64,000 nucleotides of DNA from Candidatus Hadarchaeales archaeon (GTDB lineage Archaea; Hadarchaeota; Hadarchaeia; Hadarchaeales; WYZ-LMO6). The stretch is taken from NCBI GenBank assembly GCA_038736355.1, contig JAVYML010000003.1, forward strand, positions 148,093 through 212,092, given 5' to 3'. The notes under the pieces were generated by a model, which was not told the DNA's origin, did no database searches, and saw nothing but the letters and a program-made list of their open reading frames with translations. Positions 13,952 to 58,772 of this stretch are shown here, piece by piece (position 1 is the first letter of the stretch; each line of letters begins with the position of its first letter). A program made the translations under genes and the position numbers.

Positions 13952-15199
13952 CTATTCCTTCTCACCAAACGGATTTCCAGTGCTCCGTATGTTCTCCGCT
14001 ATTGAAGTGTGGGGAGGTAGCACGAGACCTCTCGCACAGGTTTTCCCCCTTAGCCTCTCGATGATCTTGGGAAAATCGATGGAGCCCGGGCAGATCTCCC
14101 TGCAAGCCCCACAACCCGTACAGGCGAAGAGGCCGGCCCTTATCGCTTCTTCCGGCCCCAGCACAAACCAGGTCCTCACCACTCCAATGGGTCCCGCCCC
14201 TACCTTGGAAGAGAAGGCGTGGGCCGTTTCCAGCAGGACGGGACAAACCGAGAGGCAAGCCCCACAATTACAGCAATAGAGGACCTCCTCCAGCCCCATC
14301 CTCACGGCTTCTCTCCTCCATCCATCCAACAGGACCACATGTACTTCCTTAGCTCCATGCATTCCCAGTTGCTCTATCCCCATAACGTCAGCCGTCCTGG
14401 AGGGTCCCTTGATGAAGGAGTGATAGGCTCCCACTACCGTCAGGAAGGTTTCACAGGTCTTCATCACCGTAACAGCTTCCTCCATCGTGGGCACGATCTT
14501 CTCTATTCCTGCCACCGCAAGATGTTTTTCCGGTAACCTAGTGATGAGGCTGATATTCCCCTCGTTCTCCACGAGCCCCACTGCCCCTTCTTCAGCCGCA
14601 ATGGCGTTAGCCCCGGTAAGCCCTACCCTCGCCCCCAGGATCCTCTCCCTGAGCCTCTCCCTGGAAGCTTTGATGATTTCCTCCACGTCTGCGGGCAGTT
14701 CCCTCCCCACTTCCCTGGAGAGGGCCCTCGCCACTTCTTCCAGCGTGAGATGGACGGCGGGGCCAACGGGATGTAGCGGCTCCTCTCCAGCCAGCTGGAT
14801 GATCCTGTCCCCCAGGTCGGTCTCCACCACCTCCACTCCCCTTCTCTCCAGTTTCTCCACCAGCTCCAGCTCCTTCAGGGTGTTGGACTTAGACTTCACC
14901 ACCATCCTTTCCTCCCCTATCTGTTTCAGTAGGTACTCCACCGCCTCCTCCCCTTTTCTGGCCTCGAACACCTCACACCCCACCGCCCTCAGGGAGTCCT
15001 TCGCCAGGCCCACCAGTTCTTCCAGCCTACCCACCGCCCCTTCCTTGATTTTCCTATACCTTTCCTTCATCCTCCTGAGCTTCCCCTCATCCGCCCTCAG
15101 CCTGGAGAGGACCACCGAGGCAATCACCTTCAGGGTTTCCGTCCTTCCGTCCTTCATCCCCCTTTCCAGCCTTTCCCTGGTTTCCTCGTAAAGGCCCAT
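13952..15199 (-). CDS. LUD-domain iron-sulfur protein (LutB/LldF-like)
   Basis: The 415-residue protein has a LUD domain (about 65-300, with VKSKSNTLKELELVEKLE, VETDLGDRIIQLAGE and VGLTGANAIAAEEG) and two [4Fe-4S] motifs, CCNCGACLSVCP at 309-320 and CTGCGACREICP at 360-371. LutB/LldF proteins pass electrons from 2-hydroxyacid oxidation together with CCG-domain proteins (LutA/LldE). It is the last gene of a seven-gene operon and lies 1 nt after the preceding CCG-protein stop. The context makes lactate or another 2-hydroxyacid the likely substrate class, but which one is not shown. Confidence 0.85.
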   Translation of the reverse strand: MGLYEETRERLERGMKDGRTETLKVIASVVLSRLRADEGKLRRMKERYRKIKEGAVGRLEELVGLAKDSLRAVGCEVFEARKGEEAVEYLLKQIGEERMVVKSKSNTLKELELVEKLERRGVEVVETDLGDRIIQLAGEEPLHPVGPAVHLTLEEVARALSREVGRELPADVEEIIKASRERLRERILGARVGLTGANAIAAEEGAVGLVENEGNISLITRLPEKHLAVAGIEKIVPTMEEAVTVMKTCETFLTVVGAYHSFIKGPSRTADVMGIEQLGMHGAKEVHVVLLDGWRREAVRMGLEEVLYCCNCGACLSVCPVLLETAHAFSSKVGAGPIGVVRTWFVLGPEEAIRAGLFACTGCGACREICPGSIDFPKIIERLRGKTCARGLVLPPHTSIAENIRSTGNPFGEKE

Positions 15200-15200
15200 C

Positions 15201-15902
15201 TCATCCCTCCATCAGATCCCTCACCAGCAAGGAGAGGTCCTTCACCTCCACCTTTCCTTCAGCAGCTTCCTTGAGATGGTGGTAACAGAAGGGACAGGAG
15301 GTTACTAAGATTTGGGCACCTGAATCCAGGGCATCCCCTATCCTGCTTCTCGAAACGGCGGAGGAAAGCTCTTTGAAGGCCGATCTCACCCCCCCTCCAG
15401 CCCCACAGCATCTGGAGAACTCGCGGGAAAGAGGCATCTCCACGAGTTCCAGTCCGGGAATACTCCTCAGGATTTCCCTAGGTTCCTCGTAGATTCCCAT
15501 GTGCCTTCCCAGATGGCAGGGATCGTGGTAGGTCACCCTCATCCTTTTCTCCTTCAGTCTCAGTTTCCTCTCCCGTAGCATGTGGTGCAGTAGGTGGACG
15601 AGGTGGAGAACCTCCACTCCAGAGAGGGAATATTCGCGAAAGGTTGAGTAACAGCCCGGACAAGCCGTTAGGAGTCTCCTTACCCCTAGCTTGGAGAACT
15701 CTTCTTCGTTTTTCCTCCTCACCCTCTCCGCTTCCTCCCTCAATCCCGTTCGGAAGAGCACGGAACCGCAACAGGTTTCACGTTCGAAGAGGTGGAAAAC
15801 CACTTCCAGCCTTTCGAGGATTTCCAGGGTAGCTTCCGTTATTTCTCTCTCCCTGAAGGTACTCATGCATCCCCTGAAGAACCAGAACTCCACCCTCCCC
15901 AC
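15201..15902 (-). CDS. CCG-domain Fe-S protein (LldE/HdrB-type) without ferredoxin domain
   Basis: This 233-residue protein consists of two cysteine-rich CCG domains: FRGCMSTFRERE...ETCCGSVLFRTG...TACPGCYST and YHDPCHLGRH...SRCCGAGGG...TSCPFCYHHL. Such domains bind a non-cubane [4Fe-4S] cluster in heterodisulfide reductase HdrB/D and occur in lactate and glycolate oxidase subunits. Its start (GTG) overlaps the preceding gene by 40 nt. It is a paralogue of that gene's C-terminal part, and a 62-bp stretch is almost identical in DNA (one mismatch). Confidence 0.85.
   Translation of the reverse strand: MGRVEFWFFRGCMSTFREREITEATLEILERLEVVFHLFERETCCGSVLFRTGLREEAERVRRKNEEEFSKLGVRRLLTACPGCYSTFREYSLSGVEVLHLVHLLHHMLRERKLRLKEKRMRVTYHDPCHLGRHMGIYEEPREILRSIPGLELVEMPLSREFSRCCGAGGGVRSAFKELSSAVSRSRIGDALDSGAQILVTSCPFCYHHLKEAAEGKVEVKDLSLLVRDLMEG
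15480..15541 (-). repeat. Gene-conversion tract, copy 1
   Basis: These 62 bp match 16178-16239 at 61 positions by eye. The tract encodes VTYHDPCHLGRHMGIYEEPR in the same frame of two tandem CCG-domain paralogues whose flanks differ clearly in DNA. Confidence 0.85.
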
Positions 15903-17026
15903 CTCTCCAAGAGAAACTCGGTGAGATCCATCACCTTCATGTCATAACGTAAGGTTTCCGCCACTTCTTTCAACTGCCTCAAGCAGAAGGGGCAGGCGGT
16001 GAGCAGGAATTGAGCCCCAGTTTCCCTGGCTTCTTCCAACCTCTTCCTCGCCACCCACTTGGAGGCCTCGGGATATCCCGCCCTGAAACCCCCACCCGAA
16101 CCACAGCACCAGGAATTTTCCCTGTTCCTAGGCATCTCCACCAGTTCCACTCCTGGAAGGGAGGAGAGCACCCTTCGAGGTTCCTCGTAGATTCCCATGT
16201 GCCTTCCCAAATGGCAGGGATCGTGGTAGGTCACCCTCACTTCTTCCTCCCTCACCTTCAACCTGTTTTTCTCTCTCTCGAGGAGTTGTACCAAATGCAG
16301 AACCTCCACCTCCGGTTGTATCCCAAGTTCAGGATAGTCGCTTTTCCAAGCCCTATAACATCCCGGACAGTTTACCACTATCTCTTTCGCACCCCTTTTC
16401 CTCACTTCCTCCAAGTTGTGCCTGGCCATCTCCTCTACCTTCCTTCCATCGATCCTCCCCTGTCCCGTCCTGAGGAGGAAGGAACCGCAGCACCATTCGT
16501 CTTTCAGCAAGGTGAAGTTCAGGCCCATTTTCCCTAACAATTCCACCACTTTCCTAGCCAGTTCCTTCTCCCGGTAGGAAGAGGTGCAACCCACGAAGTA
16601 GACCAGGGGGGCCCTTTCTGGAAGGTTCAATCCCGGTAGCCAGGAGAACCTTTTGGCATGGGATTCCAGATAGGGATTGTGCTCCCTACCCACGTGGCTG
16701 CCCCTTTCCTCATGTTTGGAGGGGAGAAATCCCCTTTCCACCAGTCTTTCCCTAGCGGCTTCTATTACCCTCGATGGACCCGCTCCCACCGGACAGATGG
16801 CATCACAGTTCCCGCAGAGGATACAGGAAAACATGGTTTCCATCAACGAAGGGGAGGGAAAAAGATTACCTCGGAGCAAGTGGGCACAAAGGGCCATCCT
16901 CCCCCTGGGGGTTCTCGCCTCCCTTCCCCAAAACTCCAAGGAGGGACATTGGTTGCGGCAAAGACCGCAGGCCGTGCTCGAGCTCATGCAGGCATTGATC
17001 TTCGTGGAAAACTCTTCCAGCCTCAT
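15863..17026 (-). CDS. HdrD/GlcF-type Fe-S protein: two [4Fe-4S] motifs plus two CCG domains
   Basis: From ATG 17026, which forms an ATGA overlap with the GlcD stop, the product is about 387 residues. It has two N-terminal [4Fe-4S] motifs (CGLCRNQCP with an upstream Cys, and CILCGNCDAICP) followed by two CCG domains (FVGCTSSYREKE, EWCCGSFLLRTG, NCPGCYRAW; YHDPCHLGRH, SWCCGSGGGF, TACPFCLRQL). This is the HdrD/GlcF architecture that takes electrons from an FAD 2-hydroxyacid dehydrogenase. A longer TTG start at 17041 is possible. It overlaps the next gene, its CCG-only paralogue, by 40 nt. Confidence 0.87.
   Translation of the reverse strand: MRLEEFSTKINACMSSSTACGLCRNQCPSLEFWGREARTPRGRMALCAHLLRGNLFPSPSLMETMFSCILCGNCDAICPVGAGPSRVIEAARERLVERGFLPSKHEERGSHVGREHNPYLESHAKRFSWLPGLNLPERAPLVYFVGCTSSYREKELARKVVELLGKMGLNFTLLKDEWCCGSFLLRTGQGRIDGRKVEEMARHNLEEVRKRGAKEIVVNCPGCYRAWKSDYPELGIQPEVEVLHLVQLLEREKNRLKVREEEVRVTYHDPCHLGRHMGIYEEPRRVLSSLPGVELVEMPRNRENSWCCGSGGGFRAGYPEASKWVARKRLEEARETGAQFLLTACPFCLRQLKEVAETLRYDMKVMDLTEFLLERWGGWSSGSSGDA
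16178..16239 (-). repeat. Gene-conversion tract, copy 2
   Basis: This is the second copy of the 62-bp, one-mismatch repeat (the other is at 15480-15541), 698 bp away in the neighbouring paralogous gene and in the same reading frame. Confidence 0.85.
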
Positions 17027-18495
17027 CCTTCCCTCCACCAACTTTCCATGAAGGCTATCCTTGGAATGCCCTCCAAGGCCATCTTACCGGGATTCAGAAT
17101 GCCTTGGGGATCCAGGAGCTTCTTGAGGGAGCGCATGAGCTCCAGGGCATATCCGTGTTCCTCTTCCAGGTAGGGGGCTTTCCACAATCCCACTCCGTGT
17201 TCAGCGGTGAGTGTTCCACCCATCGAAAGGGCGAGCCTTATGGCTTCTTCTTGAAACCTCCTCGCCCTTTCCACCTGTTCGGGAGACTCCGGTACGAAAG
17301 TGGAACCTATATGTACATTTCCGTCTCCAACATGACCAAAACATACTCCCATGATGCCTTTTTCCTCCATGAGTGCCTTTACTTTCCTCACGTATTCCAG
17401 CATTCTGGAAAGGGGTAAACCCACATCCACGGAAGCTTGGAAAACCAACCTTGGGGTTTCCGGTGGGGGGAGGAGTTTGGTGAGGGAGGCACTGATTTTT
17501 TCCCTGGCTTCCCACAACCTTCTTCCCACTGCCTCCTCCACTTCCAAGAGTTCTGCGCCCTTCCCCTTACAAATCCCCTCCATTTCCTCCATCTCCTTTT
17601 CTACCGTCTCCTGGTACCTTCCATCCGAGCGCAGCATCAGGGCACCCTTTCCCTCGGGAAGGGAAAAACCGCTCATGTTGAGGGCGAGAAGGCAGAGCTC
17701 GTCCAGCAATTCTATGGAGGCGGGGGTTATCCCCTTCCGCAGGATTTCCATGGCGGCCTCGAAGGCATTGTCAAGCGTGGGAAAGAGGGCCAGCGTAGTT
17801 TTGCGGATGGGTGGATAGGGTTCAACCTTCAAGGTAATTTCCGTGATGACGCCCAAGGTTCCCTCGGATCCCACGAAGAGATCCTTCAGGGAATAACCCG
17901 AAGAAGACTTGGCTACCTTCCTGCCCAGTCTCACCACTTCCCCGCTTGCCAGTACCACCTCCAAGGAGAGGACGTAGTTCCTAGTGGCGCCGTACTTCAC
18001 GGCCCCCGAACCGCTGGCGTTGGTGGCTACCATTCCTCCCACGGTACAGGCCATCGCACTCCCAGGCTCAGGGGGGAAGAAGTACCCCCTGCGTTCCAGC
18101 TCCCTGTTGAGTTCTGCATATGTGGTCCCTGGCCCCGTCACCACCATGCGGTCTTCCACCCTGGGTTCTATTCTGTTCATTTTCTTCAGGTCAAGCACGA
18201 TGCCCCCTTCCACCGGAATGAGCTGTCCTGCTAGACTGGTCCCTGCTCCCCTAGGGATGATGGGAATCCGATGGAGGGAGGCGAACCTGAGGATCCTGGA
18301 AACTTGGGAGGTCTCTGAGGGTGTAACCACGGCATCGGGGAGGAACTTGAAGTGGGGAAAATAGTACTGTAAACCCCTCAGGAAATGATCGGCGGAGTAG
18401 GGAAGGAGATCCACCTCGTCCGTAAAAACATTTTCCTTTCCCACCATCCTCGCCAGTTCCCTTTCCAGTTCCCCTTTCCCTAGCCTAGGGGTCAT
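17023..18495 (-). CDS. glcD: FAD-linked 2-hydroxyacid oxidase/dehydrogenase (GlcD/D-LDH type)
   Basis: This 490-residue protein has a PCMH-type FAD domain (PRGAGTSLAGQLIPVEGG, GPGTTYAELNREL, ATNASGSGAVKYGATRNY, GSEGTLGVITEI) and the FAD-oxidase C domain (CFGHVGDGNVHIG, TLTAEHGVGLWKAPYL, DPQGILNPGKM). Family members oxidise glycolate, D-lactate or other 2-hydroxyacids to 2-oxoacids. Four-nucleotide ATGA overlaps on both sides (with iorB upstream and the HdrD-like gene downstream) tie it firmly into the operon. In this setting an aryl- or alkyl-lactate feeding IorAB is an attractive but unproven substrate. Confidence 0.9.
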   Translation of the reverse strand: MTPRLGKGELERELARMVGKENVFTDEVDLLPYSADHFLRGLQYYFPHFKFLPDAVVTPSETSQVSRILRFASLHRIPIIPRGAGTSLAGQLIPVEGGIVLDLKKMNRIEPRVEDRMVVTGPGTTYAELNRELERRGYFFPPEPGSAMACTVGGMVATNASGSGAVKYGATRNYVLSLEVVLASGEVVRLGRKVAKSSSGYSLKDLFVGSEGTLGVITEITLKVEPYPPIRKTTLALFPTLDNAFEAAMEILRKGITPASIELLDELCLLALNMSGFSLPEGKGALMLRSDGRYQETVEKEMEEMEGICKGKGAELLEVEEAVGRRLWEAREKISASLTKLLPPPETPRLVFQASVDVGLPLSRMLEYVRKVKALMEEKGIMGVCFGHVGDGNVHIGSTFVPESPEQVERARRFQEEAIRLALSMGGTLTAEHGVGLWKAPYLEEEHGYALELMRSLKKLLDPQGILNPGKMALEGIPRIAFMESWWREG

Positions 18496-19088
18496 TTCTT
18501 CCCCTCTGCCATCCCCAATTCCAGAGCCCTCAGGTTAGGGCTGTTCTCCCCGAAAAGCTCTACCACCACTTTCCTGAAACTCTCCGGCCGGAGGGGAAGC
18601 CATCCGGAGGTCGCCAGGCATCCTACCATCACCACGTTTTGCATTCTCGCATCCCCAGCCCTTTTGGCCAGTTCGGTGGCTTCCACAACCACGACTTCCC
18701 CAGAGAGTTCCCTTATGGCTTCCAAGACCTTCCCCACCTCTGGATACTTGGTTTGACCAGAAAGCACCTCAAGCGGGTAGACGGGCCTGGGGTTTACCAT
18801 CACTTTTATGTTCGGATTGCCGTAAGTTCCCAAGGCCCTCAGGGTTTCCACGGGCTCGAAGCCCAACAGTATATCTCCTACCCCCTCGGGCATGAGGGGA
18901 CTGTAGGCTCTCCTTTTGGAGAGTCTCAGATGACTCATCACCGGTCCTCCCCTTTGGGTGGCGCCGTAGGTTTCCCCCACGGAAACGTAAAAGCCTTCTT
19001 CCGTGGCGGCGGAGCCTATCAGGAGGGAGGCCAACAGGTTCCCCTGTCCTCCCACTCCCACCACCAAAACGTTTAAAGGGTCCTTCAT
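18492..19088 (-). CDS. iorB: Indolepyruvate ferredoxin oxidoreductase, beta subunit
   Basis: The 198-residue product from ATG 19088 starts with VLVVGVGGQGNLLASLLIG and contains VGETYGATQRGGPVMSHLR, the signature of the gamma/beta domain of 2-oxoacid:ferredoxin oxidoreductases. Longer in-frame starts are discounted because they overlap iorA. The ATGA overlap with the iorA stop shows coupled translation. IorAB converts arylpyruvates to aryl-acetyl-CoA, CO2 and reduced ferredoxin. Confidence 0.92.
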   Translation of the reverse strand: MKDPLNVLVVGVGGQGNLLASLLIGSAATEEGFYVSVGETYGATQRGGPVMSHLRLSKRRAYSPLMPEGVGDILLGFEPVETLRALGTYGNPNIKVMVNPRPVYPLEVLSGQTKYPEVGKVLEAIRELSGEVVVVEATELAKRAGDARMQNVVMVGCLATSGWLPLRPESFRKVVVELFGENSPNLRALELGMAEGKK

Positions 19089-21013
19089 TTTTCTTCCTCC
19101 ACTACGATGGCTCCGGCAGGGCAGAGCTTTGCACAAAGGCCACAACCCGTGCAGAGGACTTCGTCTATTTTGGCTTTCCCCTTGGAGTAGTCCCAGATAT
19201 TGGCGGGACAACCCAATACCCTGCTGCAAAAGGCCATACAACCACATTCTTCCCCTATACACTTTTCTTGGTCCACGTAGACCCTAGGCTTCCTTTTCTT
19301 CTTCTCACTCTCGGTGAGGGGGCAGGGGTGTCTAAACACCAGAACCCTTGGTCCCCTTTCCTTGAGCATCTCGTAGAAAGTTTTGGTGGCTTCGTCCACC
19401 TCGAAGGGATCGCATACCTTCACTTCCACCCCTATGCCCTTGCATAGTTCTTCCACCCTGATGGGAGGGGAAGGTTCTCCGGAAGCCGTTATCCCAGAGC
19501 CCGGGTGGGGTTGGTGCCCCGTCATTCCCGTGGTGGAATTGTCAAGTACTACGTGCAGGAGATTGGAAGAGTTCCATTTGGCATTGATGAGGGCTGGAAT
19601 GCAAGCGTGGTAAAAGGTGGAATCCCCAGAAACGGAAACCACGGGTTTGTCGAAACCGAATCTCTCCAGCTTTCCAAAGCCGCAAGCCGTTCCTATTCCG
19701 GCCCCCATACAGTGGAGGGTTTGTTCTACCGAGAAACCCGTGGGAAGGAGCCCCATGCTATAACATCCTATGTCCCCCGTCACCACGGCTTCCCTCCCCT
19801 CCCATTTGAGGGCCCTCTTCATCACCCAGAAGGAAGCGCGGTGGGGACAGCCGGGACAAAAGGCCATGGAGCGCCCTGGCACATAACCACCCACCAGTTC
19901 CTCCGCCCTGCTCGCGTATTCGCTTGGTCGGGGAGAATAGCTCACACCCGTTAGCCCACTCAGGGCTCTCAGGACCAGCTCCGTGTTGAGCTCCCCCACG
20001 GCGGGAAGGTGCCCACTTTTCTTTCCGTAGAACTTGGGGGGTTTCAGCCCCCTCGAGGCAAACTCCGCCGCCAGCATTTTCACGTTTTGCTCCAGAAAGG
20101 GATCTATCTCCTCCACGAAGAGTACCTCCTGAGCAAGGCGGAGATGTTTGAAGAGGAGTTCCTCGGGTAGGGGCCAAGTGGTACCCAGTTTCAGGATCCC
20201 CACCGAGTCCTGTAGACCAAGTAGCTCCACCGCCTCCGCGGAGTAGGTGTAGGAGGGTCCGGAGGTGATGAGGAGAAGGTTGGGGTGTTCTGGTCCCTCA
20301 TATTTGTTGAAGGGAGAGGTCTCGAACTTTTCACTTGCCGTTTTCATTTTTTGGTGGAGCATATCGTGGAACATGCAAGCGAAGGTGGAGCTTCCCGAAG
20401 TCCAAGGAGGGGGTGCTGTGAATTCCGGTTTTCTTCTTTCCCTGGAGAGGACTCCCAGTTCCACCACCCCCCTAGAATGGGAAAGCCTGGTAACGCTCCT
20501 CACCATGCAGATCAATCCCAGCTCTTCCGAAAGTTCGAAGGCCCATTTGGTCATTTCCTTGGCCTCTTGGGGGGTGGAGGGTTCGAGAAGGGGAACATCG
20601 GCCATTCTGGCGTAGTTCCTAGTGTCGAGTTCGGTGGTGGTGGAATGAGCGGCTGGATCATCCCCGGTTACGAGCACGAAGCCACCCTTTGTTCCCGAGA
20701 GGTTCACCGTCATGAGGAAATCAGAACATACATCGACTCCAAGGTTCTTCATGGCCGTGAGGGAACGGAGCCCCGTGGCGGCAGCTGCCCCGGCCACTTC
20801 GAGGGCCACCATCTCGTTCGTGGACCATTCCACATAGAGATCGAAATCCCTCGAGACCTCCAGCAGGGCTTCCACCACTTCTGAAGCCGGATTACCCGGA
20901 TAGCCGGAGCATACCTGTACTCCAGCTTCGAGTGCTCCCCTTGCTATGGCTTCGTTACCACTGAGTAACATCCTCCTTCCGGGTTGATCCACCCCTATTC
21001 TCCCCATCGTCAC
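19085..21013 (-). CDS. iorA: Indolepyruvate ferredoxin oxidoreductase, alpha subunit
   Basis: This 642-residue protein has an N-terminal pyrimidine-binding domain (LLSGNEAIARGALEAGVQV, GYPGNPASEV), a thiamine-diphosphate domain (TGDIGCYSMGLLP, SVSGDSTFYHACIPALINA, LDNSTTGMTGHQPHPG) and a C-terminal dicluster ferredoxin region (about 585-640; CIGEECGCMAFCSRVLGCP and CTGCGLCAKLCPAGA). This is the full IorA layout. The GTG start overlaps the FrhB-like stop by 4 nt. Activity gives reduced ferredoxin and aryl-acetyl-CoA from aromatic 2-oxoacids. Confidence 0.94.
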   Translation of the reverse strand: MTMGRIGVDQPGRRMLLSGNEAIARGALEAGVQVCSGYPGNPASEVVEALLEVSRDFDLYVEWSTNEMVALEVAGAAAATGLRSLTAMKNLGVDVCSDFLMTVNLSGTKGGFVLVTGDDPAAHSTTTELDTRNYARMADVPLLEPSTPQEAKEMTKWAFELSEELGLICMVRSVTRLSHSRGVVELGVLSRERRKPEFTAPPPWTSGSSTFACMFHDMLHQKMKTASEKFETSPFNKYEGPEHPNLLLITSGPSYTYSAEAVELLGLQDSVGILKLGTTWPLPEELLFKHLRLAQEVLFVEEIDPFLEQNVKMLAAEFASRGLKPPKFYGKKSGHLPAVGELNTELVLRALSGLTGVSYSPRPSEYASRAEELVGGYVPGRSMAFCPGCPHRASFWVMKRALKWEGREAVVTGDIGCYSMGLLPTGFSVEQTLHCMGAGIGTACGFGKLERFGFDKPVVSVSGDSTFYHACIPALINAKWNSSNLLHVVLDNSTTGMTGHQPHPGSGITASGEPSPPIRVEELCKGIGVEVKVCDPFEVDEATKTFYEMLKERGPRVLVFRHPCPLTESEKKKRKPRVYVDQEKCIGEECGCMAFCSRVLGCPANIWDYSKGKAKIDEVLCTGCGLCAKLCPAGAIVVEEEK

Positions 21014-22062
21014 CCTCCCCTCAGATAGGAAGCTCCCAGTTTCTCCCTTTCCTCCGCACTCCTCTTCCTCTTGGTAAGACTTGCCTCTTTCAGATGCTCC
21101 AATCTCTCCCCCTCAAGAGGTGCCGTTTCCACCTCTCCTTCCCTTCTCGCTTCCTCGAAGAATTCTATCCCCCCAGCACTCCTGAGGATCACGGTGTTCC
21201 ACCCTTCCTCCCCCTCCACCATTCCCACCGAGAGATCGGCAAGTTCCGCTGTCATGTCGAAGCAAATCCTGCATGAGGGTGGAATGAAGCTCCTTATTTC
21301 CTCCAGCGGAAATTCTATCCTTCCATTCTCCGTTTCCGCTACGAAGAGGTTGGCAGGAGGGGGAGGAATATCGAACTTCCTTACCTTCCTTCCCCTCAGC
21401 TTTGCCATGAGGAATTCACCGGCTTTGTGGGAGAGGGCCCAGGTACAGAAAAGTCCTATCACGAGTTTGATCCTCGATACTTCCCATTCCCTCTCATAGA
21501 CTTGAAGTTTTCTAAGAGCCAGCACCTGGCAGGGTGTCCCTACAAAGGCGATTCTCCCTCCTTCCCCTTTCCTCAATAACCTCACCACCTCACCTACCGA
21601 TGGGGAAAGGAGATACCTCGATCCGGTGCAGGACAATACTTCCTCCTCCGTTTTGGCTATCCTTGGTTCGGGATAGATCCCATCGGGTGAGCCCGTGAGG
21701 ATGATGGAATCCACTTTTCCTTTCTTGAGGGCGTAGAGAAGGAGGGAGGAAACGGTTCCACCGTATTGGGCCCTCTTCCTTATTCCTTCCCTCCCTGCCC
21801 TGGCTTTTAAAACGGAGGAATAGAAACCCAAGGAGGGATCCCCTTCCCCGGTCTCAAAAATCCTCTCTCTAAGATACTGCAAATCCACTTCTGTTCTGGG
21901 GCAGAAGGTATAACATCTTCCTTCCTCTTTGCCACAAAATTCTAGAATCACAGCCCTTCCCTCCACAGCGTTCAAGTAAGGACAAATGGAAGTACAAGCC
22001 CCACAGCCCGTACAGAGACCAGAAGAAAGGACTTTGGAATGGAGTTCCGAAGGTCCACCCAT
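21010..22062 (-). CDS. FrhB-type (F420-interacting hydrogenase beta/dehydrogenase) Fe-S flavoprotein
   Basis: This 350-residue protein has an N-terminal ferredoxin motif CTGCGACTSICP, a further Cys cluster (FCGKEEGRCYTFCPR) and the FrhB family core (AQYGGTVSSLLLYALKKG, VGTPCQVLALRKLQ, PPSCRICFDMTAELADLSVG). FrhB homologues bind FAD and exchange electrons between F420 and Fe-S centres. As first gene of the operon it could link the hydroxyacid and oxoacid oxidations to F420. F420 use by this protein is inferred from family, not seen. Confidence 0.87.
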   Translation of the reverse strand: MGGPSELHSKVLSSGLCTGCGACTSICPYLNAVEGRAVILEFCGKEEGRCYTFCPRTEVDLQYLRERIFETGEGDPSLGFYSSVLKARAGREGIRKRAQYGGTVSSLLLYALKKGKVDSIILTGSPDGIYPEPRIAKTEEEVLSCTGSRYLLSPSVGEVVRLLRKGEGGRIAFVGTPCQVLALRKLQVYEREWEVSRIKLVIGLFCTWALSHKAGEFLMAKLRGRKVRKFDIPPPPANLFVAETENGRIEFPLEEIRSFIPPSCRICFDMTAELADLSVGMVEGEEGWNTVILRSAGGIEFFEEARREGEVETAPLEGERLEHLKEASLTKRKRSAEEREKLGASYLRGG

Positions 22063-22082: not shown

Positions 22083-22093
22083 AAATTTAACCA
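22083..22093 (-). promoter_or_regulatory. TATA box for the seven-gene redox operon
   Basis: The minus strand reads GGTTAAATTTT, centred about 26 nt before the ATG at 22062, so the operon mRNA is predicted to be leaderless or nearly so. No other clear promoter was seen before 13952 because all gene junctions overlap or nearly touch. Confidence 0.5.
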
Positions 22094-22133: not shown

Positions 22134-23168
22134 ATGGGCCCCCTCGAATGGTGGTGGCTGAGGGTTCTGCTCATCTTTGGGTCTTTCATGCTAGGGGGAT
22201 TGCTGTTCAGAAAGTTTCTGAACTCTTACCTGCGCAGGCTCATGGCCAAAACCAGGTTGATCGAGGTACTTCCAGCCGTCCTCGGAATCCCCCTCCTGAT
22301 AGTTTTTGTGGTAGTGGGCCTCAACTTTGCCCTTCCTGAAGTCCCCTTTATACCCTCCGCAGTAAAGGAATATCTTCCTCTCCTCTTCTCCCTTCTCCTG
22401 ATCCTCCTCGGTGCTGTAATCATAGTGAGGGTAGGGAGAATCCTTTTGGAACATTATTGGGCCCCCCATACCGAGACGAGGAGTCTCATACCCATCTTTT
22501 CCAGGATCCTGAAGGCCCTCGTCTATTTCGTGGCTTTCCTCCTCATCCTCCATATCCTGGGTGTCAACATCACAGCCCTGGTGGCCGGTCTCGGTATAGC
22601 GGGGGTGGCCGTAGCCTTTGCCCTTCAAGAAACCCTCTCACAGTTCTTTGCCGGGCTTTACCTAATGTCCGAAAGACCCATCAGGGTTGGAGATTTCGTG
22701 GAATTGGAAGGAGGGCAGCAAGGATACGTGGTGGATGTGGGATGGAGGAGTACCAAGATAAGGGAACTCCCCAACAACATCATCGTGGTCCCTAACTCCA
22801 AGCTGGCAGGGATGGTGGTGAAAAACTATTCTCTCCCCGAGCCGGAGATGGCCTGCCTGGTGAACGTGGGGGTGAGTTATGACAGCGACCTGGAGAAGGT
22901 AGAAAGGGTCACCATAGAGGTAGCCAAAAATACCATGAAGAAACTGGGCATGGAGTTCCAGGGTTTCGAGCCCTTCATCCGCTATACCTCCTTTGGGGAA
23001 TTCAGCGTTAACTTCACGGTCGTCATGAGGGTAAGGGAGTTCACCGATAAGTATCTGCTCACCCACCAGTTCATCAAGGAGCTGCACAAAAGGTACAGAG
23101 AGGAGGGAATAGTGATACCCTTCCCCATAAGGACGGTCTATCTGCGGAACGGTAGGAAGGAGGATTAG
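22134..23168 (+). CDS. mscS: Small-conductance mechanosensitive ion channel (MscS family)
   Basis: This 344-residue protein has about five membrane helices. The pore helix region is VAGLGIAGVAVAFALQETLSQ, followed by the MscS beta domain (SERPIRVGDFVELEGGQQG, NNIIVVPNSKLAG) and the alpha/beta C-terminal domain. It should release solutes on hypo-osmotic shock. The N-terminal helices before about residue 110 are additional to the minimal three-helix MscS. It stands alone, divergent from the redox operon and convergent with the Fe-S gene downstream. Confidence 0.92.
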   Translation: MGPLEWWWLRVLLIFGSFMLGGLLFRKFLNSYLRRLMAKTRLIEVLPAVLGIPLLIVFVVVGLNFALPEVPFIPSAVKEYLPLLFSLLLILLGAVIIVRVGRILLEHYWAPHTETRSLIPIFSRILKALVYFVAFLLILHILGVNITALVAGLGIAGVAVAFALQETLSQFFAGLYLMSERPIRVGDFVELEGGQQGYVVDVGWRSTKIRELPNNIIVVPNSKLAGMVVKNYSLPEPEMACLVNVGVSYDSDLEKVERVTIEVAKNTMKKLGMEFQGFEPFIRYTSFGEFSVNFTVVMRVREFTDKYLLTHQFIKELHKRYREEGIVIPFPIRTVYLRNGRKED

Positions 23169-23174
23169 TCCAAA

Positions 23175-24230
23175 TCAACCCGGTGGGATGTGCTCGGGAG
23201 GTCTGACCAGCCTGAACTTCATCGCCCCTTTCTCGCACCCCACCACGCAAACCCCGCAGCCGAAGCATTTCTCGGGGATCACCCTGGCCTTGTACTTTTT
23301 GCTCCCCTCCGGCCTCACCAGTTCCACCGCCTCGAAGGGGCACCTCTCCAGACAGGTCTGGCAGCCGGTGCACCTCTCTTGGTCCACGTAGGCCTCGAAC
23401 CTGCTCTTGGCGGTGAGCTTCTCGGGAGGGATCCCGCCGTACCTGTAGAAGTTGAAGAACTCGCAGCAGTCCGGACAGCAGTTGCAGATGGTGTTGATGG
23501 TGAGCTTGGAGTGGTTGGGCCCCATGTGCACCAGCCCATCCCTTTCCGCCTTCTCCAAAACCTTCAGGGCCTCCTCCTTGTTCAGGGACTTACCCGATCC
23601 TCTCTTCACCACGTACTCCGCCCCCCTATGAAATTGGGTGCAGTGCCAGACTTCCTTTTCTTTGGTATATTTGCAGGGTTCTCCCACTCCTTCCTTCACA
23701 AGCCTACAGGAGCAAGGTACCACCGCGAGGTGGGTTTGGGAATTGACGATTTGCACAATATCCTCACATGGTAGCACTCCCTCCATCCCTTTGATGGCAC
23801 CGCTGGCCGGTATGACCCTCCAGATGGGTTCCAAGAAGATGGAACCGAGGAGCTCACCCATCCCCTTGTAAAATTCCTTCCTTCCGAAGTCATACCAGAG
23901 CTGGAAATATTTTTTGTCCTTTTCGAGGTCTAACTGTTGGGTAGCTAGGGTAGCATCGTGAAGTTGTACCAGATCCCTCGCAAACCTGAAGAAATCCCTT
24001 CTGTCGAAATCCTTCGGAAAAACAAGACCTTTCTTCCACAAGTCTTCGAGGATTTCCCTAACCTTTTCTTCGGGCATTCCTAATTTTTGTGATACTTCCT
24101 GAACACTTCCCGGAAGGGAGGCGGCCACCTTTGCCTGTTCTGGGGTCATTAGGTATTCCAAGATTTGTCGGAGAAGGGAGGACTCAGGAAAACCCAAACT
24201 CTCCATCAGGTACAGGAAAGGATCCTCCAT
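23175..24230 (-). CDS. Multi-cluster 4Fe-4S protein with N-terminal winged helix
   Basis: In this 351-residue protein, residues about 25-75 look like a winged-helix fold (ILEYLMTPEQAKVAASLPG, VQEVSQKLGMPEEKVREIL). The centre is Cys-rich (VVPCSCRLVKEGVGEPC, WHCTQFHRGAE, TICNCCPDCCEFF). The C terminus carries two ferredoxin motifs, CTGCQTCLERCP and CFGCGVCVVGCEKG. Similar proteins occur in anaerobes near hydrolase and CoA-linked catabolic genes, but their role is not defined; electron transfer is likely. It is the last gene of a unit with a permease, amidohydrolase and alpha/beta hydrolase. Confidence 0.7.
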   Translation of the reverse strand: MEDPFLYLMESLGFPESSLLRQILEYLMTPEQAKVAASLPGSVQEVSQKLGMPEEKVREILEDLWKKGLVFPKDFDRRDFFRFARDLVQLHDATLATQQLDLEKDKKYFQLWYDFGRKEFYKGMGELLGSIFLEPIWRVIPASGAIKGMEGVLPCEDIVQIVNSQTHLAVVPCSCRLVKEGVGEPCKYTKEKEVWHCTQFHRGAEYVVKRGSGKSLNKEEALKVLEKAERDGLVHMGPNHSKLTINTICNCCPDCCEFFNFYRYGGIPPEKLTAKSRFEAYVDQERCTGCQTCLERCPFEAVELVRPEGSKKYKARVIPEKCFGCGVCVVGCEKGAMKFRLVRPPEHIPPG

Positions 24231-29679: not shown

Positions 29680-31542
29680 ATGGAGGAGTGGAGGAGAAAA
29701 TATCCGGAAAAGTTTGTTCCCGAAGAGGAAATTTTTAGAAGAATACGCCGTGGAAGTAGAATCTTCGTGGGTACTGGGTGTGGTGAGCCCCAGCACCTCC
29801 TTACCTCCTTTGTGAAATGGGTGGAAGCCCACCCCAAGGCCCTTTTTGGGGCTGAGATTTTTCAAGTATGGTCTCTGGGAGTCTCCGCCTACACGGAACC
29901 AAAGTTCAAGGACAACTTTAGGGCCAACACTTTTTTTGTGGGTCCAAACACACGAAAGGCGGTAAACGAAGGTGAAGCCGATTATACCCCTATCTTTCTA
30001 TCACAAGTGCCCAGGCTTCTTAGAGAAGGTATGGTCCCCTTGGATGTGGCTTTAATACAAACCTCTCCACCAGATTCCCACGGGTACTTGAGCTTGGGTA
30101 TTAGTGTGGATATCACTAAAGCTGCAGTAGAAAGCGCGGATATGGTGGTGGCCCAAGTCAACCGTTACATGCCGAGAATTCATGGCGACGGTTTTCTGCA
30201 CCTCGAAGAGGTAGATTTTCTGGTTCCCTGGGATGAACCCCTGTTGGAGTATGAAGAAGAGGTCCCCGATGAACTTGCACAGAGAATAGGAAAATACGTG
30301 GCGAGATTGGTAGAGGATGGAGATACCATTCAGGTGGGATATGGAAGCATACCCAATGCCATTCTTTCCAACTTGATGGACAAAAGGAACCTGGGAATAC
30401 ATTCGGAGCTTTTTACGGATGGAATGGTAGAGCTGATGAAAGCTGGTGTGGTAGATAATTCAAAAAAGAGAGTTGATAGGGGAAAAGCCGTGGCGAGTTT
30501 CTGCATGGGCAAAAGGAGTACCTATGAGTTTTTGAACGACAATCCGATGGTAGAATTCAGGACGGTAGACTACACCAACGATCCCATAGTTATAGCAAGG
30601 CAGCACCATATGGTGGCCATAAACAGTGCCTTGGAGATAGACCTCACCGGGCAGGCCACGGCAGAGTCCATAGGTGGCTTTTTCTACAGTGGACTGGGTG
30701 GACAGGCGGACTTCATGAGGGGTGCAGCACTGGCCAGACACGGCAAGCCCATTTTAGTCCTTCAATCCACCGCAGAGAAGGGAACGGTCTCACGTATAGT
30801 CCCACGCCTAAAAGAAGGGGCTGGAGTGACCCTCAACAGGGGGGATGTGCACTACGTGGTCACAGAATATGGTGTGGCTTACTTGCATGGGAAAAGCATA
30901 AGGGAAAGAGCCATGGAACTCATTCGTTTGGCACATCCTCATTTCCGACCTTGGCTCATAGAAGAGGCAAGGAGGTTGGGTCTTATTTTCAAGGACCAGC
31001 TATATGTTTCAGGGGAGTATCCTGAGGATCTTGAGACCTTCAAGAAAACTAAGACAGGTCTTGAGATTTTCTTGAGACCTATAAAGCTCAGCGACGAACC
31101 TCTCTTGAAGGAATTCTTTTACTCCCTCTCAGATGAAAGTCTTTATCGCAGGTTCGTTTCCCTAAGGAAGGATATGCCCCATGATCTCTTGCAGAAGTTC
31201 GTGGCCGTGGATTACAAGAAGCAAATGGTCCTCTTGGCCATTCTGAAGAGGGGGGAAAAGGAGGAGGTGGTAGGAATGGCCCAATACGTTCTTGACGAAG
31301 CCACCAACTTCGCGGAAGTGGCATTCGCCGTTAAAGATCAGTACCAAAATCAGGGAATAGGGAGAGAACTTCTAAAGCAACTGACGTACATAGCCAAGAG
31401 ACGCGGTATTTTTGGTTTCACCGCCCAAGTCTTAGCCACCAATCGCCCCATGTTACGTCTTTTCGATAGCATGAATTTTTCCGTTGAAAAGAGAGTGGCA
31501 GAGGGAATGGTAGAACTTAAGATGAGGTTCAGAAGATCTTAA
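29680..31542 (+). CDS. Acyl-CoA hydrolase/CoA-transferase fused to a GNAT domain
   Basis: In this 620-residue protein, residues about 1-440 form an acetyl-CoA hydrolase/4-hydroxybutyrate CoA-transferase (GTGCGEPQHLL, LIQTSPPDSHGYLSLG, GYGSIPNAIL, catalytic Glu243 in HSELFTDGM, SIGGFFYSGLGGQADFMRGA, GVAYLHGKSIRERA). Residues about 457-620 form a GNAT acetyltransferase with the acetyl-CoA loop QNQGIGRELLKQL. The ATG has AAAGG just upstream. Fusions like this are known in anaerobes that handle short-chain acyl-CoA; self-acetylation or acetyl-lysine control is a hypothesis. It precedes the ABC-transporter cluster on the same strand. Confidence 0.88.
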   Translation: MEEWRRKYPEKFVPEEEIFRRIRRGSRIFVGTGCGEPQHLLTSFVKWVEAHPKALFGAEIFQVWSLGVSAYTEPKFKDNFRANTFFVGPNTRKAVNEGEADYTPIFLSQVPRLLREGMVPLDVALIQTSPPDSHGYLSLGISVDITKAAVESADMVVAQVNRYMPRIHGDGFLHLEEVDFLVPWDEPLLEYEEEVPDELAQRIGKYVARLVEDGDTIQVGYGSIPNAILSNLMDKRNLGIHSELFTDGMVELMKAGVVDNSKKRVDRGKAVASFCMGKRSTYEFLNDNPMVEFRTVDYTNDPIVIARQHHMVAINSALEIDLTGQATAESIGGFFYSGLGGQADFMRGAALARHGKPILVLQSTAEKGTVSRIVPRLKEGAGVTLNRGDVHYVVTEYGVAYLHGKSIRERAMELIRLAHPHFRPWLIEEARRLGLIFKDQLYVSGEYPEDLETFKKTKTGLEIFLRPIKLSDEPLLKEFFYSLSDESLYRRFVSLRKDMPHDLLQKFVAVDYKKQMVLLAILKRGEKEEVVGMAQYVLDEATNFAEVAFAVKDQYQNQGIGRELLKQLTYIAKRRGIFGFTAQVLATNRPMLRLFDSMNFSVEKRVAEGMVELKMRFRRS

Positions 31543-36277: not shown

Positions 36278-37039
36278 TTAAATCTCCTCCCCCAGATAGG
36301 CTTCTATTACCTTTTTGTTCTTTACTATTTCTTTGGGAGTTCCCTCCGCGATGATTTCACCAAAGTTCAGTACGATTACCCTATCCACGATCTTCATGAG
36401 TTCCGCGAGCTTGTGCTCCACGATGAGCATGGCAGGTCCTTCGCTGTGAAGCCTGCCAAATCTTCCTCCCTCGTGTAGTCTCCTTATCGATTTCGCCAAG
36501 AGTTCGGTCTCAGCCGGGCTTAATCCGCCCAATGGTTCATCGAGGAGGAGGAGTTCTGGTTCTGTGGCTATGGCTTTGGCTATTTCCAGCCTTTTGAGAT
36601 CCCCATGCGAAAGGGAAGATGCGGGTTCGAGTGCCATATCGGCTATTCCCACGAACTCCAAAGCATCCCTTGCTCTCGCTTCGGTAAGTTTGAGCCATTC
36701 CCCCCTTCTTGTTGCCCTGGGAGAAAGACAGGAAACCATTACGTTAGCTATTACGGGTAAACGGCGGAAAGGTCTAGCTCCCTGGAAAGTTATGGCGATC
36801 CCCCTATTGACTATCTCATAAGGCTTGAGACCAGTTATGTCTTCCCCCTTGAAAATTATTTTTCCGGAATCAGGCTTGAGGATTCCTCCTATGAGCTTGA
36901 GAAGAGTGGTTTTGCCTGCCCCATTGGGACCTATCAGTCCCACTATCTCGTCTCTTTCTATCTCAAAACTCACTTTGTTTACAGCTACTAATCCGCCGAA
37001 TTTCTTGGTTAGCCTTTCGACCCTGAAGAAATCACTCAT
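36278..37039 (-). CDS. livG: ABC transporter ATP-binding protein, LivG type
   Basis: This 253-residue ATPase has Walker A GPNGAGKTTLLK, the LivG insert region GIAITFQGARPFRRLPV and Walker B LLLLDEPLGGLSP, with a signature region SLSHGDLKRLEIAKAIA that has His-Gly in place of the usual Gly-Gly. ILIVEHKL-type switch residues are present as LIVEHKLAELM. An ATGA-type 4-nt overlap couples it to the upstream acyl-CoA ligase gene, and livF begins at the next base. Confidence 0.93.
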   Translation of the reverse strand: MSDFFRVERLTKKFGGLVAVNKVSFEIERDEIVGLIGPNGAGKTTLLKLIGGILKPDSGKIIFKGEDITGLKPYEIVNRGIAITFQGARPFRRLPVIANVMVSCLSPRATRRGEWLKLTEARARDALEFVGIADMALEPASSLSHGDLKRLEIAKAIATEPELLLLDEPLGGLSPAETELLAKSIRRLHEGGRFGRLHSEGPAMLIVEHKLAELMKIVDRVIVLNFGEIIAEGTPKEIVKNKKVIEAYLGEEI

Positions 37040-38727
37040 GCTTTCTTGACTTCCTCCCTTAGTTCCCTGTGAGAAATCTTTCCCACATCGGTTTTGGGGA
37101 GCTCCCCTCTGAACTCCACTATCTTAGGCACTTTATAGGGAGCCAGTTTCTTCTTACAATATTCTATGATATCTTCCTCAGAAACCTTTCCCCTAGCTTC
37201 GGTGTGTAGGACTACATAAGCTTTGACTATTTCTCCGAATTGGGGATGGGGAACCCCTATAACGGCAGCTTCTTTGATCTGTGGATGTTCGTAGAGAACA
37301 TCTTCTATTTCCCTAGCGTAGATGGAAAAGCCCTTGTATTTAATTAGATCTTTCTTTCTTTCAAAGAAATAGAAGTAACCTTCCTCATCCATTTTAGCTA
37401 GGTCGCCCGTTCTTAGCCAAGTCTTCCCTTCTATCTTCACCAATACCTTTTTGGTTTCCTCAGGATTTTTCCAGTAGCCTTTCATGACTTGCGGTCCATG
37501 GATTACAACTTCCCCTATTTCTCCAACTTTTAGGAACTGGTTTTTCTCGGGGTGGGCTATGGCGGCCAGTGTGCTGGGAAGTGGAATCCCAAAGGAATCG
37601 GCTTTGACCTTATGGTAGGGGTTACTATGAGTAACGGTGCTGGTTTCGGTAAGACCATATCCCTGAATAATCCTCGCACCAGTTTTCTTTTCCCAGTCTT
37701 GATAAGTGGAAGGATGTAAAACATCTGCTCCTGAAGTAATGAGTTTGAGCCTCTTCCAGTTCACCTTAAGAGTCTTTTCATAATCCTTCAGGAACTCGAA
37801 AACCGTGGGGACCCCATTGAACACCGTGGCGTTGTATTTTTCGATAGCATCGAGTATTTCATCAGGGTCAAAGGTGGTGAAAAGGACAAGGGTAGAACCC
37901 CAACATAGTCCAAAGATGAGTGCCACCACTTGGCCATAGATGTGATAAAAGGGTAGAAAAGCTACCACCACCTCCTTTCCTTCCTCCAAGATGGGCCAGA
38001 AGGCCCTTATTTGGGCCATGTTGGCGACTATGTTGCGATGGGGTACCATCACGCCCTTCGGAATTCCCGTGGTACCTCCAGAATAGGGAAGTGTAGCTAA
38101 ATCTTCGCTGGGGTTGATTTTCACTTTGGGAGGGTTGGGAGGATATTTCTTGAGCAGTTCTTGGAAGTGATAGATCCCCTCCCTTTTGGGAATTTTGGGT
38201 GAGGGGATCATAGCTTTCCTAAAGAGTTTTCCGAGAAGACTCTTTCCTATGAATTTTTTGAGGGAAGGCAAATATTCGCCGATGTTGGTGGTGATAATAC
38301 GATCCAACTTCAGGCCTGTTTTCTCCACGTTTTCGAAAAGAGTATCTAGGCAAACGATGGTTTTAGCCTCGCTATCCTTTAGTTGATATGCTACCTCCTT
38401 CGAAACATATACGGGGCTTATGGGAGTTACCGTAGCCCCCGTCTTTAGGATGCCGAAGTAAGAAATAACGAATTGAGGACAATTGGGAAGATACAGGGCA
38501 ACTCTCTCTCCTTTTTTCACCCCTAGGTCGTGGAGGGCAGTGGCAAATCTGTCGACATTTTCTCTCAGTTCACGGTAGCTTATCTTCCTTCCATAGAAAA
38601 TCAAGGCAGTTTTGTCAGCGTATTTCTCTGAGGCTTCATCAAAAATCTCCGGTATGGATTTGTTCGGAACCTCGATTTCTGCGGGCACCCCTGGGGGATA
38701 GGATTTAAGCCAAGGTCTTTCAGCCAT
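37036..38727 (-). CDS. AMP-forming acyl-CoA synthetase/ligase
   Basis: This 563-residue adenylate-forming enzyme has the P-loop LPYSGGTTGIPKGVM, QGYGLTETSTVTHSNP, the RTGDLAKMDEEGYFYF hinge region and the catalytic lysine segment ELPKTDVGKISHRELRE. It resembles medium/long-chain or aryl acyl-CoA ligases; the chain length is not predictable by eye. As first gene of a unit with livG and livF, it suggests the transported compound is a carboxylic acid that is activated on entry. A TATA box sits 26 nt before its ATG. Confidence 0.9.
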   Translation of the reverse strand: MAERPWLKSYPPGVPAEIEVPNKSIPEIFDEASEKYADKTALIFYGRKISYRELRENVDRFATALHDLGVKKGERVALYLPNCPQFVISYFGILKTGATVTPISPVYVSKEVAYQLKDSEAKTIVCLDTLFENVEKTGLKLDRIITTNIGEYLPSLKKFIGKSLLGKLFRKAMIPSPKIPKREGIYHFQELLKKYPPNPPKVKINPSEDLATLPYSGGTTGIPKGVMVPHRNIVANMAQIRAFWPILEEGKEVVVAFLPFYHIYGQVVALIFGLCWGSTLVLFTTFDPDEILDAIEKYNATVFNGVPTVFEFLKDYEKTLKVNWKRLKLITSGADVLHPSTYQDWEKKTGARIIQGYGLTETSTVTHSNPYHKVKADSFGIPLPSTLAAIAHPEKNQFLKVGEIGEVVIHGPQVMKGYWKNPEETKKVLVKIEGKTWLRTGDLAKMDEEGYFYFFERKKDLIKYKGFSIYAREIEDVLYEHPQIKEAAVIGVPHPQFGEIVKAYVVLHTEARGKVSEEDIIEYCKKKLAPYKVPKIVEFRGELPKTDVGKISHRELREEVKKA

Positions 38728-57752: not shown

Positions 57753-58772
57753 ATGGAAAGCCGTGGAATAGCCCCTCTAATAGCAGTGGCGGTGATAGTG
57801 ACAGCCTTAGGGACTTCAACCGCGATACCAGTGGCTGCCTCAGTCGCTAACGTAGATCCTGACCACCCCCTGTATTCTCTGAAAAGGATAGGGGAAAGAA
57901 TAAGGGGGCTCAGCGATGTTGAGCAAATGAAGCTGAGATGGCAGGAATATCAAAAAATGGTGGAAAAGGGCAAGGGGCTTCAATACCAATCAATCCTGAG
58001 GGAATTCGTGGATAAGCTGAACTCGGTGGCGCCTTACGACGTGAAGACCAAGCAGGAAATCATAGCTTGGATGCAGCAGCAAATGCCTGGTATAGGAGAG
58101 ATCAGGCTTAAATTGGCAGAAAAAATCGCGGCAGAAAATGAGCAATGGGATAACGAGGTAAGACAAATAAGGGCTTGCTGGGAAAGAGAAAGAGACTTGG
58201 GGAGTCTGAATGCAGGAATGCTTCATTTGAGGGAAAGAATAAGAGAAAGGGAAAGAGTAATGGAACGGTACTTGAAGACAGAAAACTTATTGGAGAATCT
58301 CTGCTTGAGGATAAGAGTACATGAAAACTTGGCTCTTACTTGGCAAGAGGCTAGAGAGAAAGGAGAAAACATTCTACGCACAAAGTTCAACCAACTGTTG
58401 GGATTCTTTGAGAACAAATATCCAGAAGTGGAAGCCATGTTAATGATTGCCCCTGAGAACTCTCCTGGGAAAAAAGCAGCACAAAGACTTGTGGACCTAG
58501 CTTTGAGGGAAAACAAGTTGGCTCTGTACGCTTACGATGAAAATTTGCTCGGTAGGGCAGTAGGACTCATGACTTCGGCAGTGATGCATCTCAGAAATGC
58601 GGAACATATCCTAGAACACGCACAGGAATGGGAACCCCAATACGTCCAGCAATGGTACCAATGGCGGGAAAGGTGGATGGAACTCAAGGAAGAGTTCAAA
58701 GAATTGTGGGAAAACGTGCAGCAAAACCTAGAACAGTTCAGAAACCGTATAAAGGAGAGATGGGGGAAATAA
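57753..58772 (+). CDS. Secreted or anchored helical protein, DUF5667-like
   Basis: The 339-residue protein opens with a signal or anchor segment (about 6-32, IAPLIAVAVIVTALGTSTAI) and the DUF5667-type hallmark VDPDHPLYSLKRIGERIRGL. The rest is strongly helical and charged (Glu, Arg, Gln), with many tryptophans, e.g. ERWMELKEEFKELWENVQQN. It is likely an extracytoplasmic coiled-coil protein; function unknown. GGAGGTGATAAA before the ATG is a good ribosome-binding site. A T-rich run after the stop (TTTTTCCTTCTTTTTC) may terminate transcription. Confidence 0.72.
   Translation: MESRGIAPLIAVAVIVTALGTSTAIPVAASVANVDPDHPLYSLKRIGERIRGLSDVEQMKLRWQEYQKMVEKGKGLQYQSILREFVDKLNSVAPYDVKTKQEIIAWMQQQMPGIGEIRLKLAEKIAAENEQWDNEVRQIRACWERERDLGSLNAGMLHLRERIRERERVMERYLKTENLLENLCLRIRVHENLALTWQEAREKGENILRTKFNQLLGFFENKYPEVEAMLMIAPENSPGKKAAQRLVDLALRENKLALYAYDENLLGRAVGLMTSAVMHLRNAEHILEHAQEWEPQYVQQWYQWRERWMELKEEFKELWENVQQNLEQFRNRIKERWGK

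Follow-up and report, generated by a model that had tools for sequence, protein, structure and literature searches.

A conserved seven-gene operon in one Hadarchaeal genus that may link 2-hydroxyacid and 2-oxoacid oxidation to F420

We found that seven minus-strand genes, at positions 13952-22062 of the window (the whole 64,000-nt stretch of DNA that was analysed), form a conserved operon that encodes, in this order, FrhB, IorA, IorB, GlcD, an HdrD-like protein, an LldE-like protein and a LUD protein with a 4Fe-4S dicluster (Table 1). Our preferred reading, which we give a probability of roughly 0.45, is that the operon encodes a module resembling the luo operon of Desulfovibrio vulgaris, which would convert a 2-hydroxyacid via the 2-oxoacid to acyl-CoA and CO2 with F420 as the main acceptor. 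With more reserve, we suggest that in this probably alkane-oxidising Hadarchaeon IorAB-FrhB may reduce F420 independently of ferredoxin and work together with a 2-hydroxyacid dehydrogenase.

All seven ORFs of the original prediction were recovered on the minus strand with the domains assigned to them, and the motifs are intact in all seven. Comparison with the sister species (L003) was used for start refinement and revised three starts: IorA probably starts at the ATG at 21007, leaving a 2-nt gap behind FrhB; the HdrD-like gene probably starts at the ATG at 17026, with a 4-nt overlap with GlcD; and the LldE-like gene probably starts at the GTG at 15893, approximately 31 nt within the HdrD-like gene. 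IorB (18492-19088) shares an ATGA overlap with IorA, the LUD gene begins 1 nt past LldE, and after refinement the junctions in FrhB-to-LUD order are +2, -4, -4, -4, about -31 and +1 nt. The genes thus overlap or abut, as predicted. Because the genes overlap, the seven are probably read as one transcript. The predicted TATA box was found as TTAAAT, approximately 25 nt ahead of the FrhB start, and a TATA-like element (TTAAAT or TTATAAAT) lies at equal distance in both sister species, i.e. in three species including that of the window. A sigma-70 promoter scan returned no site, as expected for an archaeon, and terminator-like sites occurred at chance frequency.

Table 1. Genes and promoter element of the operon, with its possible companion gene (positions in the window; revised starts are given in the text).
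Feature	Position	Strand	Domains or remark
FrhB-type F420 reductase subunit	21010..22062	(-)	Pfam PF04432, PF04422
IorA-like 2-oxoacid oxidoreductase alpha	19085..21013	(-)	POR_N, TPP-binding, C-terminal Fe-S ferredoxin domains
IorB-like subunit	18492..19088	(-)	PF01558 POR
GlcD/LDHD-type FAD D-2-hydroxyacid dehydrogenase	17023..18495	(-)	PF01565, PF02913
HdrD/GlcF-like electron-transfer subunit	15863..17041	(-)	N-terminal 4Fe-4S dicluster + 2 CCG
LldE/LutA-like protein	15201..15902	(-)	PF02754, 2 CCG motifs
LldF/LutB-like protein: LUD + 4Fe-4S dicluster	13952..15199	(-)	PF02589, Fer4_8
TATA-like TTAAAT, operon upstream side	22085..22090	(-)	same position in L003, L046
Fe-S protein, possible operon companion	23175..24230	(-)	upstream of FrhB, same strand, in sister species

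In the sister species (L003, CALJER010000009.1), all seven genes are present in identical order, with protein identities of 78-93%. Across the operon genes dN/dS was 0.04-0.15 at dS 0.66-1.44, and these values indicate that the operon is under strong purifying selection. Since the identical order in L003 and L045 is kept at such divergence, the operon is real beyond chance. In a third species (G025), FrhB lies at the end of one contig and IorA-IorB-GlcD at the end of a second one, and these four genes in two pieces are consistent with the same order. The flanks have changed while the operon stayed unbroken: an extra ORF lies downstream in L003, and only the window carries an MscS-type channel gene upstream (22134-23168, plus strand), between FrhB and the Fe-S protein gene. 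In L003 and L046 these last two genes are adjacent on one strand with no MscS between them, and the Fe-S protein is 89% identical to that of the sister species (dN/dS 0.05). Two MFS genes come after the operon. A scan of the genome contigs with FrhB found one locus, in the sister species. None of the 24 further genomes of the class has a close match to the operon GlcD; in the family's second genus, both this GlcD and this IorA are missing. Co-occurrence beyond the genus was likewise not seen: by inspection of the matches listed from 394 archaeal genomes (GlcD E ≤ 1e-70, IorA E ≤ 1e-120), no GlcD/IorA pair lay within 20 kb on one contig. Among the archaeal matches listed, the seven-gene set is kept inside one genus and was not seen outside it, so that the conservation proposed as a check holds at genus level only.

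The best PDB match of GlcD was mouse LDHD (8JDC, 266 bits), followed among solved relatives by LctD (253 bits), which belongs to the confurcating Ldh-EtfAB. In mouse LDHD, Arg347, His398, His405, Glu442 and His443 are all essential (PMC10589216); the operon GlcD keeps R/H/H/E/H at these positions. The pocket positions Val101/Trp351/Ser365/Ile407 read L/S/S/G (V101L, W351S, I407G), which suggests a larger pocket, although further archaeal GlcD proteins form a group with a similar small-residue pocket. Against the glycolate oxidase model TIGR00387, GlcD scored 367 bits, below the cut-off of 568. Three more GlcD-type matches occur in the genome, two without the catalytic site (L057, L061) and one that retains little of the C-terminal domain (L099); because of these losses, the operon GlcD appears to be the only clear 2-hydroxyacid dehydrogenase of its type in the genome. 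Outside the operon, GlcD/HdrD-like pairs lie at three loci (L098:7611-10228, L099:8953-12486 and L097:8153-10634), near CoA-ligase, CoA-transferase or thiolase-like genes; their GlcD-type members are without the residues of a 2-hydroxyacid dehydrogenase or are missing most of the C-terminal domain.

IorAB has the same domain architecture as canonical archaeal IorAB but falls below the curated cut-offs and in a separate clade. IorA scored 611 bits against the IOR_alpha equivalog (cut-off 650.9), whereas two IorA proteins from other genera of the class pass it (675 and 653), and IorB scored 155 bits against TIGR03334 (cut-off 205.8). In the tree, IorA formed a fully supported group with the IorA of three genomes from another archaeal family, outside the canonical Hadarchaeal IOR clade. 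A canonical IOR identity was therefore rejected, and the predicted arylpyruvate oxidoreductase was not borne out; the label 'arylpyruvate' comes with the family and does not establish the substrate of this IorAB. The genome has only two OFOR gamma subunits, IorB and a POR-type subunit elsewhere.

FrhB consists of an N-terminal ferredoxin part followed by FrhB_N/FrhB_C, and the cysteines of the ferredoxin part (C17-C20-C23-C27 and C43-C50-C54) are conserved with L003. Its best PDB match, nearly full length (residues 5-334, 208 bits), was 8RIU_B. This is zeta, which serves as F420 reductase in the F420-reducing CODH of Ca. Ethanoperedens and combines an F420-reductase domain with a two-cluster ferredoxin domain (PMC11493965). 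The window FrhB aligned with both of these domains and, judged by the alignment, is zeta-like in build; further matches were the Frh hydrogenase (145 bits) and the Fwd-bound module 8RJA_E (129 bits). It scored 183 against PRK09325 (cut-off 269). In the FrhB tree, the operon protein lies on a long branch outside the main Hadarchaeal FrhB clade, and its neighbour, with weak support (89% SH-aLRT), is an FrhB beside HdrA/MvhD-like genes. Zeta did not group with it, and the tree thus does not support a strict zeta orthologue. The FrhB family also includes members that do not use F420, such as 7-hydroxymethyl chlorophyll a reductase (5DQR). Single-chain AlphaFold models from two-row alignments had mean pLDDT values of 38 for FrhB and 40 for the LUD protein. 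The genome has only one other FrhB match, which is nearest to Frh in the PDB. An F420-dependent Mtd, confirmed by Pfam, shows that F420 is used by this organism. The prediction that a hydroxyacid oxidase, a 2-oxoacid oxidoreductase and an FrhB of the F420 type share a single gene unit is supported.

The HdrD-like and LldE-like proteins each carry two complete CCG motifs, at residues 152 and 276 and at residues 12 and 129, respectively. The LUD protein scored 258 bits against TIGR00273 (cut-off 444.8) and is the only LUD protein found in the genome, in which LldG/LutC is absent. Relatives of E and F of the LldEFG/LutABC set are thus present while G is missing, and because of the missing LldG/LutC, L-lactate oxidation is not established; that the LldE-LUD pair oxidises an L-hydroxyacid would be a guess. 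We considered two origins of LldE, namely duplication of the operon HdrD and descent from LldE-LldF pairs beside mfnB/guaB-like genes of other archaea, and found neither supported, as LldE did not group with the HdrD or with those pairs in the tree. Such LldE-LldF pairs without LldG adjoin mfnB-like and guaB-like genes in other archaea (L154, L155, L156, L160, L161).

The genome is 1.27 Mb in size and 96% complete. It carries two McrA-family genes, with MCR first among the PDB matches of McrA, and a Fwd/Mtd/Ftr/Mch-like cluster as read from sequence. Because it is a small genome of a small class with McrA-family and Fwd/Mtd-type genes, the host fits the alkane-oxidising Hadarchaeota, presumably Ca. 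Cerberiarchaeaceae. For long-alkane-oxidising Hadarchaeota, electron disposal has been stated to be unknown (PMC10811742). Proteins of the NADHdh family (NuoH/EchB/FpoH) had no match in any contig of this 96% complete genome, and Ech-, Mbh- or Fpo-type complexes were thus not seen. Each McrA-family gene is followed, within approximately 10 nt, by a gene for a related protein of approximately 200 aa without a Pfam match (L188:574-1158, minus strand; L187:911-1522, plus strand), possibly a reductase accessory. Elsewhere in the window, a plus-strand gene (29680-31542) encodes a fusion of an acetyl-CoA hydrolase/transferase with a GNAT acetyltransferase domain; downstream of it come an ABC importer of the branched-chain-amino-acid type and an AMP-binding acyl-CoA ligase (37036-38727). 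Another plus-strand gene (57753-58772) encodes a protein of 339 aa without a Pfam match, rich in charged residues and with an N-terminal hydrophobic stretch.

In the mechanism that we propose, the substrate would be a 2-hydroxyacid with a hydrophobic side chain. GlcD, with FAD and a divalent metal, and the HdrD-like Fe-S/CCG subunit would oxidise the D-2-hydroxyacid, and IorAB would decarboxylate the resulting 2-oxoacid to acyl-CoA. FrhB, built like zeta and FwdI of Ca. Ethanoperedens, would dock on the ferredoxin domain of IorA and send its electrons via FAD to F420, so that free ferredoxin would not be needed. The LldE-LUD pair may serve as a second Fe-S dehydrogenase or as an adaptor, possibly for the L-isomer. 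We infer the FrhB-IorA docking, the substrate, the direction and the formation of a complex from the genes. We favour this F420-linked module because gene order is conserved under purifying selection and recurs in pieces in a third species, and because FrhB matches zeta best in the PDB (208 bits, compared with 145 for Frh), unlike the second FrhB of the genome, whose best match is Frh. Further reasons are the intact GlcD site, which the paralogues lack, and the presence of only two OFOR gamma subunits. In addition, FrhB-like subunits take over the role of ferredoxin in the CODH and Fwd of an alkane oxidiser (PMC11493965), and the genome encodes Mtd while no Ech/Mbh-type ferredoxin oxidation was seen; in Ethanoperedens, missing ferredoxin-dependent pumps were likewise an argument for F420 use (PMC11493965). 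Against the module stand the FrhB tree, in which zeta is not nearest, the non-F420 relatives of FrhB and the restriction to one genus. Moreover, without the NADHdh family there is no evident route for F420H2 reoxidation.

The strongest alternative, which we consider unlikely, is ordinary ferredoxin-linked catabolism of amino acids or hydroxyacids by IOR-type and D-lactate-type enzymes, with FrhB as a cell-wide ferredoxin:F420 adaptor. IorA has a ferredoxin domain of its own, importer and acyl-CoA ligase genes are nearby, and a heterotrophic life on sugars and amino acids is described for most Hadarchaeota; however, FrhB stands first in the unit, the genome has just one other FrhB gene, and IorA is not the canonical Hadarchaeal IOR. 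Alternatively, the HdrD-like and LldE-like proteins might, through their four CCG domains, link the hydroxyacid/oxoacid pair to CoM-S-S-CoB, either spending the heterodisulfide or, in reverse, regenerating it for an alkyl-CoM reductase with the 2-hydroxyacid as electron sink. Two McrA-family genes lead one to expect CoM and CoB, and all four CCG motifs are complete, but GlcF, GlpC and LutA relatives carry CCG motifs and are not known to act on heterodisulfide. For Verstraetearchaeota, it has been proposed that HdrD-GlcD complexes regenerate CoM/CoB (PMC6783470), yet the Acr-encoding Hadarchaeal family is reported with HdrABC for that job (PMC10811742). The family's other genus also lacks this GlcD and IorA, and we regard thiol/disulfide coupling as distinctly improbable.

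The 2-oxoacid/acyl-CoA couple has a potential of about -500 mV. With lactate/pyruvate at -190 mV (PMC9232219) and F420 at -340 mV (PMC11493965), a hydroxyacid cannot reduce F420 uncoupled, which is a further point against the F420-linked module, and the GlcD/HdrD branch may thus feed another acceptor. Two routes can be drawn: IorAB is wired to F420 by FrhB while the hydroxyacid electrons leave elsewhere, or both are joined by confurcation. In the latter, which the original prediction had raised, electrons from the hydroxyacid and from reduced ferredoxin or IorA would together reduce two F420 per hydroxyacid converted to acyl-CoA and CO2. Confurcation is thermodynamically attractive, the mean of the two potentials lying near that of F420, both oxidation steps share one operon with FrhB, and GlcD is related to LctD, but the operon encodes no Etf, HdrA or NfnB-like protein, and to our knowledge FrhB has no role as a bifurcating flavoprotein. 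Since the bifurcating flavin of Ldh-EtfAB sits in EtfAB and the FAD of Ldh, the GlcD-type subunit, is not bifurcating (PMC9232219), the operon lacks a known flavin of this kind, and we regard confurcation, too, as improbable. For direct IorAB-FrhB wiring, as in the F420-linked module that we prefer, solved structures provide a precedent (8RIU, 8RJA; PMC11493965), and the parts that it needs are present.

The original prediction held that the modules are normally seen apart, but the luo operon of D. vulgaris (DVU3025-3033) already joins PFOR with both hydroxyacid dehydrogenase types in one transcript, and its proteins co-migrate (PMC4481167). In luo, GlcD with an Fe-S/CCG protein forms the D-lactate dehydrogenase, and the LUD/Fe-S/CCG proteins form the L-lactate enzyme. 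Both operons bring together a 2-oxoacid:ferredoxin oxidoreductase, GlcD, an Fe-S/CCG protein and LUD/Fe-S/CCG proteins, and here, too, GlcD and its Fe-S/CCG subunit share one unit with the 2-oxoacid oxidoreductase. In contrast to luo, IorAB replaces the one-chain PFOR, FrhB is added, the gene order differs, and the seven genes include no lactate permease, pta, ack or lldG. The statement that no described system has exactly this set therefore stands in part: the combination is partly known, and what looks new is FrhB, the host and the use of a divergent IOR where luo has PFOR. A search of the full-text literature, which covers few subscription journals, found neither an FrhB-linked 2-oxoacid oxidoreductase nor F420-dependent hydroxyacid confurcation. 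The Archaeoglobus fulgidus cluster AF0806-AF0811 (lctP-lldD-dld-lldEFG), in which dld is joined with lldEFG, likewise brings D- and L-lactate-type dehydrogenases together in an archaeon (PMC3949148); unlike the present operon, it has LldG and a lactate permease, and no OFOR or FrhB is among the genes described. Ldh-EtfAB of Acetobacterium woodii shares GlcD/LctD homology and identical catalytic residues with the operon but has EtfAB, where the operon has the HdrD-like subunit instead.

The closest parallel for FrhB is in Ca. Ethanoperedens thermophilum, an alkane-oxidising archaeon in which zeta of CODH (8RIU) and FwdI (8RJA) are FrhB-like with an N-terminal ferredoxin domain and, as here, their genes accompany a normally ferredoxin-linked enzyme (PMC11493965). 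The predicted partner here differs, being a 2-oxoacid oxidoreductase, and zeta is not the nearest neighbour of FrhB in the tree. Such F420 coupling has recently been seen for two other enzymes only, CODH and Fwd, whose F420-reducing forms had been proposed as a trait of ethane oxidisers alone (PMC11493965). If our reading is true, IorAB-FrhB would be the third CO2-releasing enzyme type wired directly to F420, which would extend this coupling to a third, widespread enzyme class, and direct F420 wiring would not be restricted to ethane oxidisers. A related F420 reductase together with a 2-oxoacid oxidoreductase in such a host makes a direct test possible.
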